A stretch of 50,196 bases of DNA from an uncultured Saccharospirillaceae bacterium (GTDB taxonomy: Bacteria > Bacteroidota > Bacteroidia > Flavobacteriales_D > CAJJDF01), in assembly GCA_950054195.1 (NCBI GenBank), contig CATLPG010000019.1:1-50196 (forward strand). The letters run 5' to 3'. Within the stretch, counting starts at the first letter, position 1. Each line of letters begins with the position of its first letter. Below the pieces are notes generated by a model. That model saw only the letters and a list, made by a program, of their open reading frames with translations, was not told the origin of the DNA and did no database searches. Shown here piece after piece: positions 12,867-42,913 of this stretch. The position numbers were made by a program, and so were the translations under genes.

Positions 12867-14399
12867 ATGAAGAAGATTACTTTATTAAGTATATTTTTAA
12901 TATCAATACTTACTGCTGGTTTTTCTCAAAAATCAAAAGCAGATAAATACTTCAGACTCCAAAACTTTAACTTTGCATTAGATGAGTATCTAGAGCTTTT
13001 GGACGAAGAAGAGGATGATTTAGAATACAATTACAGAGCAGCTGTTTGCTATCTTAATGTTAATGGAGATAAGGCACAAGCAATTCCTTATTTGGAAAAA
13101 GTTGTTGCAGCAGAAAATACTAACCCAGACGCTGTTTATTTATTAGGTAGAGCTTATCAATTTGGTTATAAATTTGACGAAGCTATCAAGCAATTCAATG
13201 TTTACAAGCAAACTGGTAAGGGTAGTTATTATAACCTAGAAGATGTTGATAGGCAAATTGAGCACTGCCAAAATGCAAAGCAATTAATGAAGACTCCTGT
13301 AGATGTTTCGTTCTTCAATTTAGGAGAAGAAATTAATTCTTCTTTTGATGATTATTATCCATTTGTTCCAAAAGATGAATCTTTTGTGATTTTTAATTCA
13401 CGAAGAAGAGATAATAGTGTTCAACAAGATAATGGATTATTCTTTACTAATACTTTCATATCTAAAGTGGTAGATGGAGATTATCAAAAAGCTTCTTTAA
13501 CTTTTGATATCAATGACCCAAAACTAGATAATGAGGTTGTAGGAATGAATGCTGATGGTACTAAAATAGTATTCTATAATAATAATTATAGAGGTATATC
13601 TGATCTAAGACTTGCGGATTTTTCTAGAGAGGGTAGAGCGAGTAACATTACAAAGCTAGGAGAAACTATTAATTCAAAATATACTGAAATCTCAGGGGCT
13701 TTGTCTGAAGATGGGAAAAAATTCTTTTTTGCTAGTGACAGAGAAGGAGGGTACGGAGGAACAGATTTGTATTTATGCCAAAAACTACCTAATGGAGAAT
13801 GGAGTGAAGCTATGAATCTAGGACCTACCATTAATACTGTTTATGATGAAGACTTTCCAAACTTATATGACAATGGCAAAGTGCTTTACTTTAGTTCTAG
13901 AGGTCACTCTAGTATGGGGGGATATGATATCTTTAAAGCTAAATGGGATGAAGGTGAAAAACAATATGCCGCTGTTGAAAATTTAGGTTACCCTATCAAT
14001 ACACCAGAGGACAACATGAATTTCCGTTTATCTGATAATGGTAAATTTGGGTATATGGCTGCTGTTAGAGAAGATAGCTACGGAGGTTTAGATATCTACA
14101 GAGTAAACTTTAATGACATCGAATCTAAGTATACCGTTATACGAGGTGAGATTATAAATAAGTCAGAAAATAAGCCACAGAATATTTTTATTACCGTTTA
14201 TGATGAAAATGGAGATGTGTATGGAGACTATAAACCAAACATGGAATCCATGAAGTATGTTATTATTCTACCAGCTGGTAACTACACAATGGAGGTTGAA
14301 AGTCCAGGCTATAAGTTAATAGAAGAAACGATTGCTGTTAAAGATAAAGTTTCCTACAAGCCTGAGGTTGTTTCCGATATCGTTTTGACTAAAAATTAG
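12867..14399 (+). CDS. Exported TPR and PD40 beta-propeller repeat protein
   Basis: A 510-residue exported protein. Residues 1-20 are a signal peptide (ending TAGFSQ). Residues 22-140 hold TPR-like repeats (YFRLQNFNFALDEYLELL, AIPYLEKVVAAENTNPDAVYLLGRAY). Residues 150-420 hold PD40 blades with the repeated pattern 'ALSEDGKKFFFASDREGGYGGTDLY', 'LYFSSRGHSSMGGYDIF' and 'GKFGYMAAVREDSYGGLDIY'. A C-terminal carboxypeptidase-regulatory-like beta domain (KPQNIFITVYDENGDVYG) closes the protein. This is the architecture of PorE-like OmpA proteins but without the OmpA domain, so peptidoglycan binding is not expected. It may act in the periplasm with T9SS or surface assemblies; this is inference. It stands alone with its own leader. 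Confidence 0.82.
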   Translation: MKKITLLSIFLISILTAGFSQKSKADKYFRLQNFNFALDEYLELLDEEEDDLEYNYRAAVCYLNVNGDKAQAIPYLEKVVAAENTNPDAVYLLGRAYQFGYKFDEAIKQFNVYKQTGKGSYYNLEDVDRQIEHCQNAKQLMKTPVDVSFFNLGEEINSSFDDYYPFVPKDESFVIFNSRRRDNSVQQDNGLFFTNTFISKVVDGDYQKASLTFDINDPKLDNEVVGMNADGTKIVFYNNNYRGISDLRLADFSREGRASNITKLGETINSKYTEISGALSEDGKKFFFASDREGGYGGTDLYLCQKLPNGEWSEAMNLGPTINTVYDEDFPNLYDNGKVLYFSSRGHSSMGGYDIFKAKWDEGEKQYAAVENLGYPINTPEDNMNFRLSDNGKFGYMAAVREDSYGGLDIYRVNFNDIESKYTVIRGEIINKSENKPQNIFITVYDENGDVYGDYKPNMESMKYVIILPAGNYTMEVESPGYKLIEETIAVKDKVSYKPEVVSDIVLTKN

Positions 14400-36693: not shown

Positions 36694-37932
36694 ATGAGCG
36701 TGAAAAGAATACTAACCATAACATTATTTTTAATATCCTGTGTCAGTTATTGTCAAATGTATAATAATGCAGCTATGACAGTTACAAGTGGTGCAGCTGT
36801 TACTGTATCTGCAGGAACTTTACGTAATGATGTAACTGGTGATATAGATAATAACGGTAATATTTATGTTGATATCGACATTGATAATGGAGGTACTATT
36901 CAAGGAAGAAGTTTGGCTTCTAGTCAATTTAATTTAGGTCAAGATTGGGTTAACGATGGAACGTTCATTGCAGATAGCTCAACAGTAACTTTTTTTGGTA
37001 ACGATCAATTTATAACTGGTTCATCAGTTACACGGTTTTATAACGTAGTTTTTGATGGTAATGGAGTAAAAGCTCAAACGATTGACGCTGAAACATACTT
37101 TATGGACCTAACTTCAAATGAGTTAGCAACAAATGATTATGTTATGACAGTTCTTTCGCCTGATGTTAATGCTATTTCAAGAACGAATGGTTTTGTAAGT
37201 AGTTTAAATGATGGTCATCTTGAAAGAATGACTAATAGCACTGATTCTTATTTATTTCCAACGGGTTCTTCGGTACAAACATTAGGTTTTTATCGCCCGA
37301 TAGTTATGACACCAAATACAAGTGCTTTAGGAAGCTATGGTGTTCGTTTGGCTCATACAGATGCAACCTTTGAGGGATATGATCGTTCGATAAAGGCAGA
37401 TAACGTAAAAAGTACGAATCCATATTTTTATCACCACCTTTATCGTTTTGCTGGAGCACCTCCAACTGATATTACATTTCAATACCTTCCAGTTGATGGA
37501 ACATTCGAAAATGCGGCTCAATGGTGGTATACAGGTCAATGGGAGTCTAATTTCTTAGAGAATACAAGTGCTTCGGGAGCATTTAGTGAGGTGTCTTTGT
37601 ATGAAGTTTCTAATTTTAATACAAGAGCATTTATTCTAGCAAATAGAATAGAACCAATTTTTATCCAAAACGCATTTAGTCCTAACGGAGATGTTGTGAA
37701 TGATGTTTTTGAATTACAACTTAGTTACGAAGATTTCACAGAATTTGAGTTTGTGATATTTAACCGTTGGGGAGAAGTGATTTTCGAAACAAATCAACCT
37801 GATTTCTCATGGGATGGTAGCTATAAAGGAAAAGATTGTCCAATAGGTGTTTATCCTTACAGGATGACTTACCGCTATGAGAACCAAGCAGCAGTTCAAG
37901 AAGAGGCAGGACATATTAACCTAATCAGATAA
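36694..37932 (+). CDS. Surface protein with T9SS type B (gliding-motility-associated) C-terminal domain
   Basis: A 412-residue exported protein. The signal peptide is residues 1-20 (ends SCVSYCQ). The N-terminal half carries beta-helix-like repeats rich in Thr, Val, Gly and Asp (AMTVTSGAAVTVSAGTL, VDIDIDNGGTIQG). The last 90 residues match the CHU_C / type B sorting domain: IQNAFSPNGDVVNDVFEL, VFNRWGEVIFE-like FVIFNRWGEVIFETN, WDGSYKGKDCPIGVYPYRMTYR. Type B proteins leave by T9SS and are held at the surface by PorP/SprF-type proteins, one of which lies two genes downstream. The surface ligand or adhesive role is not visible. Confidence 0.9.
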   Translation: MSVKRILTITLFLISCVSYCQMYNNAAMTVTSGAAVTVSAGTLRNDVTGDIDNNGNIYVDIDIDNGGTIQGRSLASSQFNLGQDWVNDGTFIADSSTVTFFGNDQFITGSSVTRFYNVVFDGNGVKAQTIDAETYFMDLTSNELATNDYVMTVLSPDVNAISRTNGFVSSLNDGHLERMTNSTDSYLFPTGSSVQTLGFYRPIVMTPNTSALGSYGVRLAHTDATFEGYDRSIKADNVKSTNPYFYHHLYRFAGAPPTDITFQYLPVDGTFENAAQWWYTGQWESNFLENTSASGAFSEVSLYEVSNFNTRAFILANRIEPIFIQNAFSPNGDVVNDVFELQLSYEDFTEFEFVIFNRWGEVIFETNQPDFSWDGSYKGKDCPIGVYPYRMTYRYENQAAVQEEAGHINLIR

Positions 37933-37981
37933 TCCAATACATTGATGTTTTTTGTATCTTAGGATATTACAGAAATATCCT

Positions 37982-39682
37982 ATGGTCAAGTATTTATATT
38001 ATATTATTGGTTTATTATTAGTTTCCTTAAATGGATTATCCCAAGAACTAAACCTTGAAGCAATTAGTAACTGGAGAGATACAGGTACTACTAGATATAA
38101 CGACTGCTGGGCATGGGCACAAGATGGTAAAGAATATGCTGTAATTGGCTCAAGATTTGGAGCCCACATAATAGATGTAACTGATCCACAAAATATTTTT
38201 GAAGTAGACCGGGTAAGAGGTAGACATTTTGGTAGTAACGTTATCCATCGAGATTATAAAACATACAATGGATATTTATATGCAGTTGGAGATCAAGGAA
38301 ATGCCAGTTTACAAATTATTGATCTCTCGTATTTACCCGATTCTGTTCATTTGGTTTATGATGAGGATTCTTTATTGGTTCGATCACACAACATTTTTAT
38401 AGATACAGTTAATGCAAGGTTATATTCTGGAGGAGGTTCTAAGATAGGAGGAGGAAATCATCTTCGAATTATTGACATTAGCAATCCAACAAATCCTTTC
38501 CTATTGGTTGATTGTTTAACTGAATTCCCTTGGTGGCAAGTTTTTGTAGGGTACGTTCATGATTTATACGTAAGGGATAATATAGCTTACGTACACGATG
38601 AAGATGCTTTTCACATCATAGATTTTACCGATCCTTTAAACCCTGTGGTAACAGGACAATTATCGATGTATGTGGATGAAGGCTATAACCACTCTGGATG
38701 GTTACATGAAGATGGAAGCAAGTACATTATGTTTGATGAAACTATCGGTAAGCGTATTAAAATGCTGGATGTATCAAATCCAGTGGATATAAAAGTAGAT
38801 GACGCTTTTGGAGTGTATACTGGTGATAATACGAATACAATTGCACACAATGGTTTTTTTCTAGGTGATTTAGCTTATGTAAGTTATTATGATGATGGTG
38901 TATATGTATATGATTGCACCGATCCTCAAAATGTTGAAATTGAAGGTTATTACTACATAAATAATGGTCCCTTTGGAACAGGTTCAGCAGGGGTATGGGG
39001 AGTTTATCCTTATTTGCCTTCAGGAAATATAATAGCTTCAGATATGGGATCAGGTTTACATGTGTTAAAATGGAAAACACCTGAGGTATTTATAGAGTCT
39101 GGTGTTGATACCACATATTTCGAAGGAGAAGTAACTTTTGGAGCTCCATTACGAGTATCTCTATCACATGCTACTTCTCACAACGATATTACTGTAGATT
39201 TATCTTTTGATACTGTGAGCTCTACCGCAGACACAAACGATTTTGACTTTATCTTCTCTGATTTAACTGGAGATTTGCCTCGATCAATAACGTTTGAGAA
39301 AAACTATACTAAAAGTTTTGCTTTTGATGTTTCAATGGAAGGTGATATGATTCCAGAATCGGATGAGTATATAAAACTTAAGCTATCAAATTTAATTGGT
39401 GCAACATTAGGTAAAGATGAATTAACGTTAATTATAAAAGATACCTTAATTACATCAGTAGAATCATTAGAAAAGGATCTTTTGAAAATTTACCCTAACC
39501 CTATTAGTCAAGGAGAAAACATCAACTTTAGTGAGCCAATCAGTTATGTGCTTTTTGATATTTCAGGCAATAAAATCAAAGAAGCAAACTTAGCCAATCA
39601 GTTGAATACAGCTAATCTTACTAGAGGAGTTTATATTTTAAGATCTTCCAAACAAACAGTTTATAGAATAATAGTGAATTAG
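37982..39682 (+). CDS. Choice-of-anchor B protein with T9SS type A C-terminal domain
   Basis: The ATG at 37982 starts MVKYLYYIIGLLLVSLNGLSQ, a clean signal peptide; a TTG at 37952 gives only ten extra residues. The 566-residue protein has LVIVD-type propeller repeats (NHLRIIDISNPTNPFLLVDC, DAFHIIDFTDPLNPVVTGQL, DGVYVYDCTDPQNVEIEGYY), which define the 'choice-of-anchor B' family. A Calx-beta-like domain with acidic calcium-type residues follows (about 380-490), and the protein closes with a type A sorting domain (LLKIYPNPISQ ... GVYILRS). It should be a secreted or surface protein. The SprF-like gene starts 2 bases after its stop. Confidence 0.9.
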   Translation: MVKYLYYIIGLLLVSLNGLSQELNLEAISNWRDTGTTRYNDCWAWAQDGKEYAVIGSRFGAHIIDVTDPQNIFEVDRVRGRHFGSNVIHRDYKTYNGYLYAVGDQGNASLQIIDLSYLPDSVHLVYDEDSLLVRSHNIFIDTVNARLYSGGGSKIGGGNHLRIIDISNPTNPFLLVDCLTEFPWWQVFVGYVHDLYVRDNIAYVHDEDAFHIIDFTDPLNPVVTGQLSMYVDEGYNHSGWLHEDGSKYIMFDETIGKRIKMLDVSNPVDIKVDDAFGVYTGDNTNTIAHNGFFLGDLAYVSYYDDGVYVYDCTDPQNVEIEGYYYINNGPFGTGSAGVWGVYPYLPSGNIIASDMGSGLHVLKWKTPEVFIESGVDTTYFEGEVTFGAPLRVSLSHATSHNDITVDLSFDTVSSTADTNDFDFIFSDLTGDLPRSITFEKNYTKSFAFDVSMEGDMIPESDEYIKLKLSNLIGATLGKDELTLIIKDTLITSVESLEKDLLKIYPNPISQGENINFSEPISYVLFDISGNKIKEANLANQLNTANLTRGVYILRSSKQTVYRIIVN

Positions 39683-39684
39683 CT

Positions 39685-40698
39685 GTGAAACGAGTTTTAC
39701 TATTAACATATGTATTGATTTTTTGTAATGTTATATTAGTAGCACAAGACATCCATTTCTCACAGTTTTACCAATCACCTCTTACTTTAAATCCGGCACT
39801 TACAGGTCAATTTGATGGAGATTATCGATTTGCAGGTAATTATCGTAACCAGTGGAGCTCTGTTACCGTTCCTTTTCAAACATTTAGTCTTTCAGTTGAT
39901 GCTCGAGAGCCTTTTAAGCAAAAAGACATAGGAGCTGGTATTTTGTTTGTACATGATCATACAGGAGATTCTAAGTTTAGGACAACTATTTTTAATGTTA
40001 GTGGGGCATATAAGTTCAAGATAAATACAGATTCTACTCAGTTTTTAAGTGTAGGGGGGATGTTCGGAGTTACAAGGAAAAGTTTAAATTTTCAATTCTT
40101 AACATTTGATGCTCAATACAATGGATTTCAATATGATGCTTCACTTCCCAATGGAGAATCATTTACGAACTCTCGTCAAACCCTTATAAACGTTCATCTA
40201 GGAGTTAGCCATGAGTGGAATTTTGGAACGAGAAATAAGTTAACTAGTGGTATTGCAGGTTTTAACCTAACATCACCAAAAGAATCTTATTTCGGGAATA
40301 AATCCATTGCTCTTGATCGAAGAATTGTACTTCATAGTCAATTAAATTATCAAGTAGCACAAAATTATGATGTTATACCTACGTTATTGTATATGAATCA
40401 AGGTACTTATAACGAGTTTGTTTTAGGAGCCTTAGGAAAGTTTGTAGTGGATGATACTCCAGGTGTTATGTACAAGGCAGCTTATGCAGGTATTTTGTTT
40501 CGAACAAGAGACGCAGGTTACTTAACTGCTGGGTATCAATATAGAAATTGGGATGTTAGTATCAGTTATGATTTTAATTTCTCTACATTAACGCCAGCAA
40601 GTAATGGTTTGGGAGGTATTGAGTTAGCTGCAATCTATATTTTAAAGCAGTTTAAGCCTCAAAAAGTTAAACATCGTATTTGTCCGGATTATATTTAA
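39685..40698 (+). CDS. PorP/SprF family T9SS outer-membrane protein
   Basis: A 337-residue beta-barrel protein. A GTG start gives a signal ending ILVAQ, then QDIHFSQFYQSPLTLNPALTGQFDGDYRFAGNYRNQWSSV, the hallmark N-terminus of the PorP/SprF family. In gliding bacteroidetes SprF is needed to export and hold the adhesin SprB, and PorP-type proteins serve type B CTD cargo. It sits in the same run as a type B CTD protein and directly before a TPR/PD40/OmpA protein (1-base gap), the usual neighbour. The C-terminal residues (KVKHRICPDYI) do not end in the phenylalanine common in outer-membrane barrels. Confidence 0.94.
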   Translation: MKRVLLLTYVLIFCNVILVAQDIHFSQFYQSPLTLNPALTGQFDGDYRFAGNYRNQWSSVTVPFQTFSLSVDAREPFKQKDIGAGILFVHDHTGDSKFRTTIFNVSGAYKFKINTDSTQFLSVGGMFGVTRKSLNFQFLTFDAQYNGFQYDASLPNGESFTNSRQTLINVHLGVSHEWNFGTRNKLTSGIAGFNLTSPKESYFGNKSIALDRRIVLHSQLNYQVAQNYDVIPTLLYMNQGTYNEFVLGALGKFVVDDTPGVMYKAAYAGILFRTRDAGYLTAGYQYRNWDVSISYDFNFSTLTPASNGLGGIELAAIYILKQFKPQKVKHRICPDYI

Positions 40699-40699
40699 A

Positions 40700-42913
40700 A
40701 TGAAGTTTTATTTACAAATAGTATTCATCTTAATGAGTTGTTTTGGACTTTCTCAAACCAAAAATCAACTAATAACTTTTGCAGATGAGCAAGTAGCAGA
40801 AGGAGATTATTATGGAGCTATCAATTATTATCAAAAAGCAATGAACATTGATAGTATTGATATTGATGTGTTATTCAAATATGCTGAGGCGTTAAGATTA
40901 TATAAAAACTACCCCAAAGCAGAGTATTACTACGAAAAAGTGTATAAAAAGGGAAATGGTAGAATTCATCCATCGTGTGTATTTTGGTTAGCATCTATGC
41001 AAAAAATGAATGGAAAGTATAAGGAGGCTTCCAAAATGTGGAAACGGGCAAAAACAATTGCGAGAGATAAAGACTCCTTTGAACATCAAAAAGCCAAACA
41101 AGAAACGAGAAGCTGTACATTTGCTCGAAGGATATCCAAGTATATTACTGATGCTGAAGTTAAAAATATAGGAGAAGGAATTAATAGTTATGATTCAGAG
41201 TTTTCTCCATTTATACATAATTCAACGCTTTATTATTCTTCCTTATCATCTGATCGTATGGGAAGCGATCAACAAGTGTTGGATGAACAGTATAAAGTAG
41301 AAATATATGCTGGAAAAAAGATAGATTCTACATGGAACAAAGAAAAAAAACTTGAACGTTCAATTAATAATCTGACTCAACACAATGCAAATGGAACATT
41401 TAGTCTTGATGGATCAGAATTTTATTTTACACGCTGTAATAGCTTTGATCAATGTCAAATTATGGTTTCTGAAGTAAAGGATGATAAATTTGGAGAAGCA
41501 AAAACTGTAAACATTAATTCAGTAGGTTCCACTCAAACACAGCCTCAAATAGCTTTATTTGATGGAAAAGAAGTGTTGTTTTTTGTCTCTAATAGAAAAG
41601 ATGGCTTTGGAAAGCTTGACATTTGGTATGCTGAGAAAAAAGGCAAAGGAAAGTTTGGTAAGCCCATCAATGCAGGTAAAGAGATTAATTCAATAGATAA
41701 TGAAATAACACCTTTTTTTGATTCAAAAGAGAACGAGTTATATTTTAGTTCTGAATGGCATTTTGGCTTAGGAGGGTTTGATATTTTTAAATCAACGTTT
41801 AAAAATGGTGAATTTGGGAAGCCAGAAAACTTAAAGCCACCAATCAACACGAGGTGGAATGATTTTTATTTCACTTTAGATACAATAAACTATAAAGGTT
41901 ATCTTGCCTCTAATAGGGAGGGGAGTCTTGCATACAGTCACCCTACTTGTTGCAATGACATTTATGTAGTAACATTTCCAAAGCCTGTTGTACCTGAAGA
42001 AGTTGAAATTGTAACTTTAGAGGATTTAAATAAGTATTTACCTGTGAAATTATATTTTCATAACGACTGCCCCAATCCAAGAACAGTAGATACAGTTACT
42101 AATTTAAATTATTTAACTACCTACGATGATTATATTGATTTAGTCCCTAAGTATCAGGAAGAATATAGTAAAGGGCTGTCAGAAGAAAAAGCTGTTGAAG
42201 CAGAGGTCGACATTACTGACTTTTTTAAAAAATATGTAGAGCAAGGTGTTGATGATTTGGAGTTGTTTACAAAGCTCCTCTTACTGGAACTTAAAAAAGG
42301 AACTAGAATTAATATGACAGTTAGAGGTTTTGCTTCTCCATTAGCAAAAACCGATTATAACGTTAAACTTACTGGTCGAAGAATTTCTTCATTAATGAAT
42401 TATCTAAACGAATTTAATGGAGGTGTTTTTGTTCCTTTTATTCAATCCGAGCAACTTACATTTACTAAGATTCCATATGGGGAATATACAGCTTCTAATT
42501 TTGTAAGTGATAACTTAAATGATCAAAGGAATTCTGTGTATAGCAGAGCTGCTGCATTAGAGCGAAAAATAGAGATTGTATCTGTTAATTTAGCTCAAGA
42601 AGAAAAAGGAGAGCCTGTTTTTGATAATGAAATTCATGATTTTGGAAAAGTAACATCATTAGATACATTAAAACATGCATTTACCCTACAAAATAAAGGA
42701 ACAAAACCATTAACGATTAAAGAACTTAAAGCAAGTTGCTCGTGCACTGGGGGAATTGTATCTAAACAGGTTTTGTTACCAAATGAAAAGACTAAAATCG
42801 AAATTTTTACTAAACCAAACCCATTTAAAGGAAAGCAAATCCAACGAGTTGAAGTCTTGACTGATGGTATTCCTGAAAAAATAGAATTATCGGTTGCTTT
42901 TGAGTTAGAATAA
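40700..42913 (+). CDS. TPR-PD40-OmpA-like protein with fused DUF1573 domain
   Basis: A 737-residue exported protein. Signal peptide 1-19 (CFGLSQ); TPR repeats about 22-130 (GDYYGAINYYQKAMNIDSIDIDVL); PD40 propeller about 150-430 (FVSNRKDGFGKLDIWYAEK, YFSSEWHFGLGGFDIFKS); an OmpA-like domain about 530-635 (TVRGFASPLAKTDYNVKLTGRRISSLMNYL ... RAAALERKIEIV), stretched by an insert before the last strand; then a DUF1573 immunoglobulin-like domain (DFGKVTSLDTLKHAFTLQNKGTKPLTIKELKASCSCT). The OmpA part should clamp peptidoglycan. PorE-like proteins have the first domains but normally end at OmpA; the DUF1573 tail is unusual. It is the last gene of the surface-display run. Confidence 0.88.
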   Translation: MKFYLQIVFILMSCFGLSQTKNQLITFADEQVAEGDYYGAINYYQKAMNIDSIDIDVLFKYAEALRLYKNYPKAEYYYEKVYKKGNGRIHPSCVFWLASMQKMNGKYKEASKMWKRAKTIARDKDSFEHQKAKQETRSCTFARRISKYITDAEVKNIGEGINSYDSEFSPFIHNSTLYYSSLSSDRMGSDQQVLDEQYKVEIYAGKKIDSTWNKEKKLERSINNLTQHNANGTFSLDGSEFYFTRCNSFDQCQIMVSEVKDDKFGEAKTVNINSVGSTQTQPQIALFDGKEVLFFVSNRKDGFGKLDIWYAEKKGKGKFGKPINAGKEINSIDNEITPFFDSKENELYFSSEWHFGLGGFDIFKSTFKNGEFGKPENLKPPINTRWNDFYFTLDTINYKGYLASNREGSLAYSHPTCCNDIYVVTFPKPVVPEEVEIVTLEDLNKYLPVKLYFHNDCPNPRTVDTVTNLNYLTTYDDYIDLVPKYQEEYSKGLSEEKAVEAEVDITDFFKKYVEQGVDDLELFTKLLLLELKKGTRINMTVRGFASPLAKTDYNVKLTGRRISSLMNYLNEFNGGVFVPFIQSEQLTFTKIPYGEYTASNFVSDNLNDQRNSVYSRAAALERKIEIVSVNLAQEEKGEPVFDNEIHDFGKVTSLDTLKHAFTLQNKGTKPLTIKELKASCSCTGGIVSKQVLLPNEKTKIEIFTKPNPFKGKQIQRVEVLTDGIPEKIELSVAFELE

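Follow-up and report, generated by a model that had tools for sequence, protein, structure and literature searches.

The four genes studied here, within the window (the whole 50,196-nt stretch of DNA that was analysed), are rather probably to be read as an old carrier-anchor pair, B3-B4, whose DUF7948 cargo has been relocated and is carried in trans, whose operon slot has been taken by the propeller protein B2, and whose members are joined by a putative disulfide. The orthology of the pair, the content of the slot, the orphan cargo and the invariance of the cysteines are direct observations. B3 would collect from the translocon a protein of type B and hold it at the cell surface, and B4 would fix B3 from the periplasmic side. 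The ancestral cargo would have been a DUF7948/propeller/PKD type B protein, encoded directly before the carrier in many relatives; in the window's family its gene would have moved away (to contig C7 in the window genome), the protein probably still being served by B3 in trans. B2, a type A beta-propeller protein exported via PorV, would then have taken the operon slot, to be co-produced and co-displayed at the surface, and B1 would be a late neighbour, found in the window genome only, that B3 may serve as well, as an optional client. The single tail cysteine of B3 and the vicinal cysteine pair of B4 are perhaps disulfide-joined. Carriage in trans, the co-display of B2 and the disulfide are thus what we infer.

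Organization of the block and family assignments

The genes were labelled B1 (type B protein), B2 (type A propeller protein), B3 (PorP/SprF) and B4 (PorE-like), and all four ORFs lie on the + strand (Table 1). The ORF of B2 opens at a TTG (37952-39682), the ATG at 37982 being the start chosen in the first-pass annotation, and that of B3 opens at a GTG. The gaps of 49, 2 and 1 nt given in that annotation were reproduced from the ORF coordinates, and no terminator-like site was found on the + strand inside the block. Profile scores upheld the families assigned to the four genes with two amendments, both on B4: a DUF1573 domain had been missed, and the OmpA-like part is divergent. A second PorE-like protein of 510 aa is encoded in the window far from the block (12867-14399, +), with 27% identity to residues 30-410 of B4.

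Table 1. Positions of the genes, domains and cysteines of the block in the window
Feature	Position	Strand	Remark
B1, secreted, 412 aa, CTD of type B (CHU_C)	36694..37932	+	neighbour of the triad in the window genome alone
B1 type B sorting domain	37660..37929	+	closest CTDs: orphan, DUF7948 cargo, and pairs of the B3 clade or B3-like
B2, choice-of-anchor B propeller protein with Calx-beta-like domain and type A CTD	37982..39682	+	cargo slot before PorP in 6/6 family genomes
B2 type A CTD (TIGR04183)	39488..39679	+	chain 8glk_D, named Endonuclease I, matched by the family profile
B3, PorP/SprF-family carrier	39685..40698	+	model: 14 strands, FadL-like fold
B3 Cys333 in C-tail (HRICPDYI)	40681..40683	+	kept in all B3 orthologs examined
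B4, PorE-like: TPR, 5-bladed propeller, divergent OmpA-like part, DUF1573	40700..42913	+	usually single copy per genome in the order
B4 vicinal cysteines Cys417-Cys418 (TCCND)	41948..41953	+	73/73 orthologs, 0/50 other PorE-like proteins
B4 divergent OmpA-like region	42017..42589	+	Ser546/Asn554/Arg561 match PorE Asp576/Asn584/Arg591 by spacing
B4 DUF1573/HYDIN-type Ig domain with Cys-Ser-Cys (Cys680/Cys682)	42620..42895	+	Cys in 51/73 at each position

A probable carrier-anchor pair conserved in the Flavobacteriales

B3 and B4 form an orthologous pair spread through the Flavobacteriales. Relatives of B4 (E <= 1e-100) were found in 188 of the 299 genomes of the order, and in 162 of the 203 good ones, nearly always one in each. 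B3 scores well over the cut-offs of its family profiles (TIGR03519, 161 bits against 90.55; PF11751, 110 bits against 22.3), and its model is a 14-stranded barrel (mean pLDDT 74.8) with FadL as best fold match in the PDB, where 8gl6_F of a type IX secretion system (T9SS) complex was also matched; by sequence, no PDB match was obtained up to E 1. Subunits of BAM were considered as the identity of the pair and dropped.

Pfam matches in B4 are to TPR, PD40 and DUF1573, and the TPR matches together with a propeller at residues 148-431 of the model give it the TPR/propeller organization of PorE. The curated PorE profile NF052230, on the other hand, gives 176 bits over residues 8-414, below its threshold of 600 bits. 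No match to the OmpA family PF00691 was found in B4 at E <= 1, and six of 12 orthologs gave matches only at E >= 0.018; three other PorE-like proteins of the window's family have OmpA matches of 4e-16 to 5e-20. CarboxypepD_reg was not matched in B4 by the Pfam scan, while the PorE-like protein of locus L052 has this domain. Against the PDB, B4 matched by sequence TPR proteins only, the OmpA-like part being without a solved relative, and in the fold searches the propeller filled the list, so that the OmpA-like part was barely probed.

PorE contacts peptidoglycan via Asp576, Asn584 and Arg591 (PMC7192894), and each of the three B4 residues that correspond to them by spacing is invariant in 73 orthologs. 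B4 had been taken for a peptidoglycan anchor at first reading. This assignment is uncertain: B4 keeps two of the three contact residues of PorE, the replacement of Asp by Ser counts against it, and the binding of peptidoglycan by B4 may, as judged from these residues, be kept, altered or lost.

Cysteines of the carrier and its partner

The C-terminal tail of B3 is disordered and carries a single cysteine past the last strand, mostly in the motif CPDY[IL], and this holds for all B3 orthologs, so that the Cys-X-Cys of SprF is not present in any of their tails. In the model, the vicinal pair of B4 falls within a loop of low confidence that precedes the last strand of the propeller. Among 57 B3-clade carriers with a PorE-like neighbour the tail cysteine is found in all 57 and the CC in the nearest ORF in 55. 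Outside the B3 clade, 21 PorE-linked carriers (B3-like and other) include 20 that lack a tail cysteine and one with a cysteine only in the last strand, and none of their PorE-like neighbours has a CC. A further 15 carriers outside the B3 clade have a tail cysteine and no PorE-like neighbour, with a GldJ/GldK-like gene downstream in six. PorP/SprF tails with two cysteines (e.g. FTCKPP...TISCPSF) were observed at loci L005, L212, L217, L245, L248 and L249, before a GldJ/GldK-like gene; no type B gene stands directly ahead of these carriers, which may be SprF-like and track-linked.

In Flavobacterium johnsoniae, the Cys-X-Cys in the C-terminal tails of SprF and PorG is bonded to Cys343 of GldK (PMC12635249). 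The split of the cysteines by carrier class, together with this bond, leads us to propose, tentatively and at rather less than an even chance, that B3-B4 is a covalently locked static anchor, in which the tail cysteine of B3 would attack the vicinal disulfide of B4, as the mirror of SprF-GldK. The two have in common a carrier with a conserved cysteine in its periplasmic C-tail; in the gliding track, however, the twin cysteines are on the carrier and the single reacting one is on GldK (PMC12635249), whereas here the carrier would provide the single cysteine and the PorE-like partner the pair, the bond being putative. Since B3 and B4 each form a single clade, the joint presence of tail cysteine and CC counts as one evolutionary event and not as independent co-variation.

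It could also be the case that, like the tail of SprF, the tail cysteine of B3 is bound to GldK; B3 would then be mobile and track-linked, and B4 would not be its covalent partner. GldK is present in the window genome, the bond has the precedent of SprF and PorG just cited, and the tail-cysteine carriers that lack a PorE-like neighbour, six of them followed by a GldJ/GldK-like gene, fit such a role. Nevertheless, we regard it as rather unlikely: B3 has one cysteine where SprF has Cys-X-Cys, it is PorE-linked wherever a neighbour is seen, in F. johnsoniae PorE-like genes do not accompany the genes of mobile substrates (PMC12618676), and the invariant CC of B4 would be left unexplained.

The cargo slot and the orphan cargo

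The slot in front of B3 was surveyed in stretches read from 60 loci of B4 relatives and 14 loci from named contigs, on which the counts rest, and the census comprises the 57 non-redundant loci that have both B3 and B4. The named relatives of the window's organism are Flavobacteriales, including Crocinitomicaceae. Directly before B3 there is a DUF7948 type B cargo in 27 loci, no gene in 15, another gene in eight, B2 in six and a type A fragment in one. The usual cargo has about 1,050-1,630 aa, with DUF7948, SBBP propeller repeats, PKD or Ig domains and CHU_C. The same order of cargo, carrier and anchor was found in a Cytophagales contig (L093), and the arrangement is therefore not confined to the order Flavobacteriales. 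The six loci with B2 are exactly the window's family, a clade (support 1.0) nested among lineages with a type B protein in the slot, so that the B2 state is most simply derived. The type A fragment (L114:130-489) comes from a different family, where an ORF of 119 aa with a type A CTD lies a short way ahead of B3. Between its end at base 489 and B3 there is a hairpin with a run of T, and the idea that a type A protein had entered the slot in this family too was dropped on this account.

With the Crocinitomix cargo as query, a whole-length relative was found in each of the six family genomes, away from any PorP gene (C7:51359-55081 in the window genome), and these orphan orthologs score 1549-1582 bits with the cargo profile. 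In 60 of 63 paired type B CTDs the most similar other CTD was paired with the same class of carrier, which indicates that type B CTDs predict their own carrier class. The CTDs of the family's orphan cargo have one another as nearest relatives, and any paired CTD that comes next is of the B3 clade. B3 is expected to pair with the DUF7948 type B protein encoded on another contig, and carriage in trans has a precedent in F. johnsoniae, where Fjoh_1677 is shared by three type B proteins that are orphans (PMC12618676). In that study AlphaFold3 complexes of cognate pairs reached iPTM values above 0.8. Faster change of B3 relative to B4 was not seen on the branch where the slot was swapped (the mean residual is 0.009 and the sd of the outsiders 0.35); this counts against the main reading, as nothing in B3 points to a new cargo.

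The triad in the window's family

The order B2-B3-B4 is kept in six family genomes of two genera, at 43-64% identity, with a B2-B3 junction of 2-3 nt or a one-base overlap. In genome G005 (L058:10478-12846) B4 is split into two overlapping ORFs of 254 and 552 aa at a contig end, which may be a frameshift or an assembly error. In the four relatives with a long enough contig, a YidC-like gene and one for a protein of about 180 aa stand 5' of B2, and none of them, a member of the same genus included, has a type B gene before the triad; the contig of a fifth relative ends 0.5 kb before B2 and was left out of the upstream comparison. In the window genome the triad stands after an ABC transporter pair, and the comparison indicates that it is in a changed place and that B1 is a local neighbour. 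The four genes had been described as a single block, an idea that was to be abandoned if they proved scattered in close relatives; B1 is indeed missing in the four, and its place beside the triad is peculiar to one genome. What survives of the proposed export-and-attachment unit is the general idea, since type B-PorP-PorE operons have been described (PMC9143113), five of them in F. johnsoniae (PMC12618676), and what does not is a self-contained unit of four genes.

B1 has a type B CTD by scores over the cut-offs (CHU_C, E 7e-18, 65 bits; TIGR04131, 57 bits). That it is the cognate cargo of B3, with B2 as an extra subunit of a self-contained display unit, was the original model. It is in keeping with the adjacency, the short gaps and the lack of a terminator-like site on the + strand, and also with the CTD of B1, which forms a long branch in the vicinity of the CTDs of orphan, cargo and B3-like proteins and whose nearest CTDs are from orphan, cargo, B3-clade and B3-like proteins and not from other carrier classes. 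However, besides being missing in the four relatives, B1 has its closest homologues, in relatives and in the window genome, including proteins of about 417 aa, in separate modules with a PorP of their own (without tail cysteine) and a PorE-like gene. In the window genome (G000), B1 is matched 63 times at E <= 1e-5, for the most part in its type B CTD, and the PorP family 21 times, so that many type B proteins must share carriers and neighbours of the kind of B1 are frequent. We consider this model, with its putative B1-B3 pairing in one genome, unlikely; the CTD of B1 is, by its sequence, a fitting subtype for B3 and leaves room for B1 as one of its clients, which it may be.

B2 matches the choice-of-anchor B profile TIGR04312 (E 7e-54), its Calx-beta part is supported by profile matches to NCX1, and its CTD is of type A, over the cut-offs of Por_Secre_tail (PF18962, 28.7 bits) and TIGR04183 (31.8 bits). 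A type A protein and not a type B one is thus found directly before PorP in all six family genomes, and B2, once seen as an accessory to a type B pair, occupies the cargo slot itself. That B2 is carried by B3, its type A-like CTD being recognised by a PorP/SprF carrier, would suit its exact cargo position and tight junction in six genomes but is very unlikely, since its CTD is type A by both profiles, type A CTDs use PorV in described systems (PMC12618676), PorV, needed for type A export, is present in the window genome, and the divergence of B3 is not unusual. The place of B2 in the operon does not imply contact with B3 or B4, which gene order alone cannot show.

Four family genomes encode another choice-of-anchor B protein, of about 460 aa and with a type A CTD, directly after a type B protein of about 770-840 aa (L166:5617-9551, L173, L174 and L177), with no PorP beside the two in these stretches; L175 and L176 have the propeller gene, and no type B ORF was flagged before it.

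Relation to known systems and significance

The PorE-PorP-PG1035 complex of Porphyromonas gingivalis (PMC9143113) likewise combines a PorP-family barrel, a periplasmic partner of TPR/propeller/OmpA-like build and a client of type B at the surface. B4 differs from PorE in its DUF1573, its vicinal cysteines, the Ser in place of the peptidoglycan-contacting Asp and the lack of a CRD match, and the operon slot in the window's family holds a type A protein. F. johnsoniae Fjoh_3952-3951-3950 has the same order of cargo, carrier and PorE-like genes, and static anchoring has been proposed for the operons of this organism (PMC12618676); here, in contrast, a type A propeller protein replaces the cargo gene, and the true cargo is probably in trans, like the orphan substrates of Fjoh_1677. 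In a word search, no paper was found that links choice-of-anchor B to type IX secretion. Within the literature so searched, three features appear to be new: the family-wide presence of a type A protein in the cargo slot, the relocated cargo and the cysteine signature of B3-B4. Absence of precedent is weak evidence when literature is searched by words only.

The slot swap means that adjacency, the usual means of pairing cargo and carrier, fails in the window's family, the predicted cargo being on another contig. What sets a type B carrier moving on the gliding track or keeps it fixed was left open in previous work (PMC12635249, PMC12618676). The carriers fall into three groups, those linked to PorE and without tail cysteine, those with a tail cysteine and no PorE-like neighbour, and the order-wide pair that has both together with the cysteine pair on the anchor, and this split is a testable sequence rule for moving and fixed carriers. 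If the proposed bond is true, disulfides would be the means by which Bacteroidota decide whether a surface protein moves or stays fixed.
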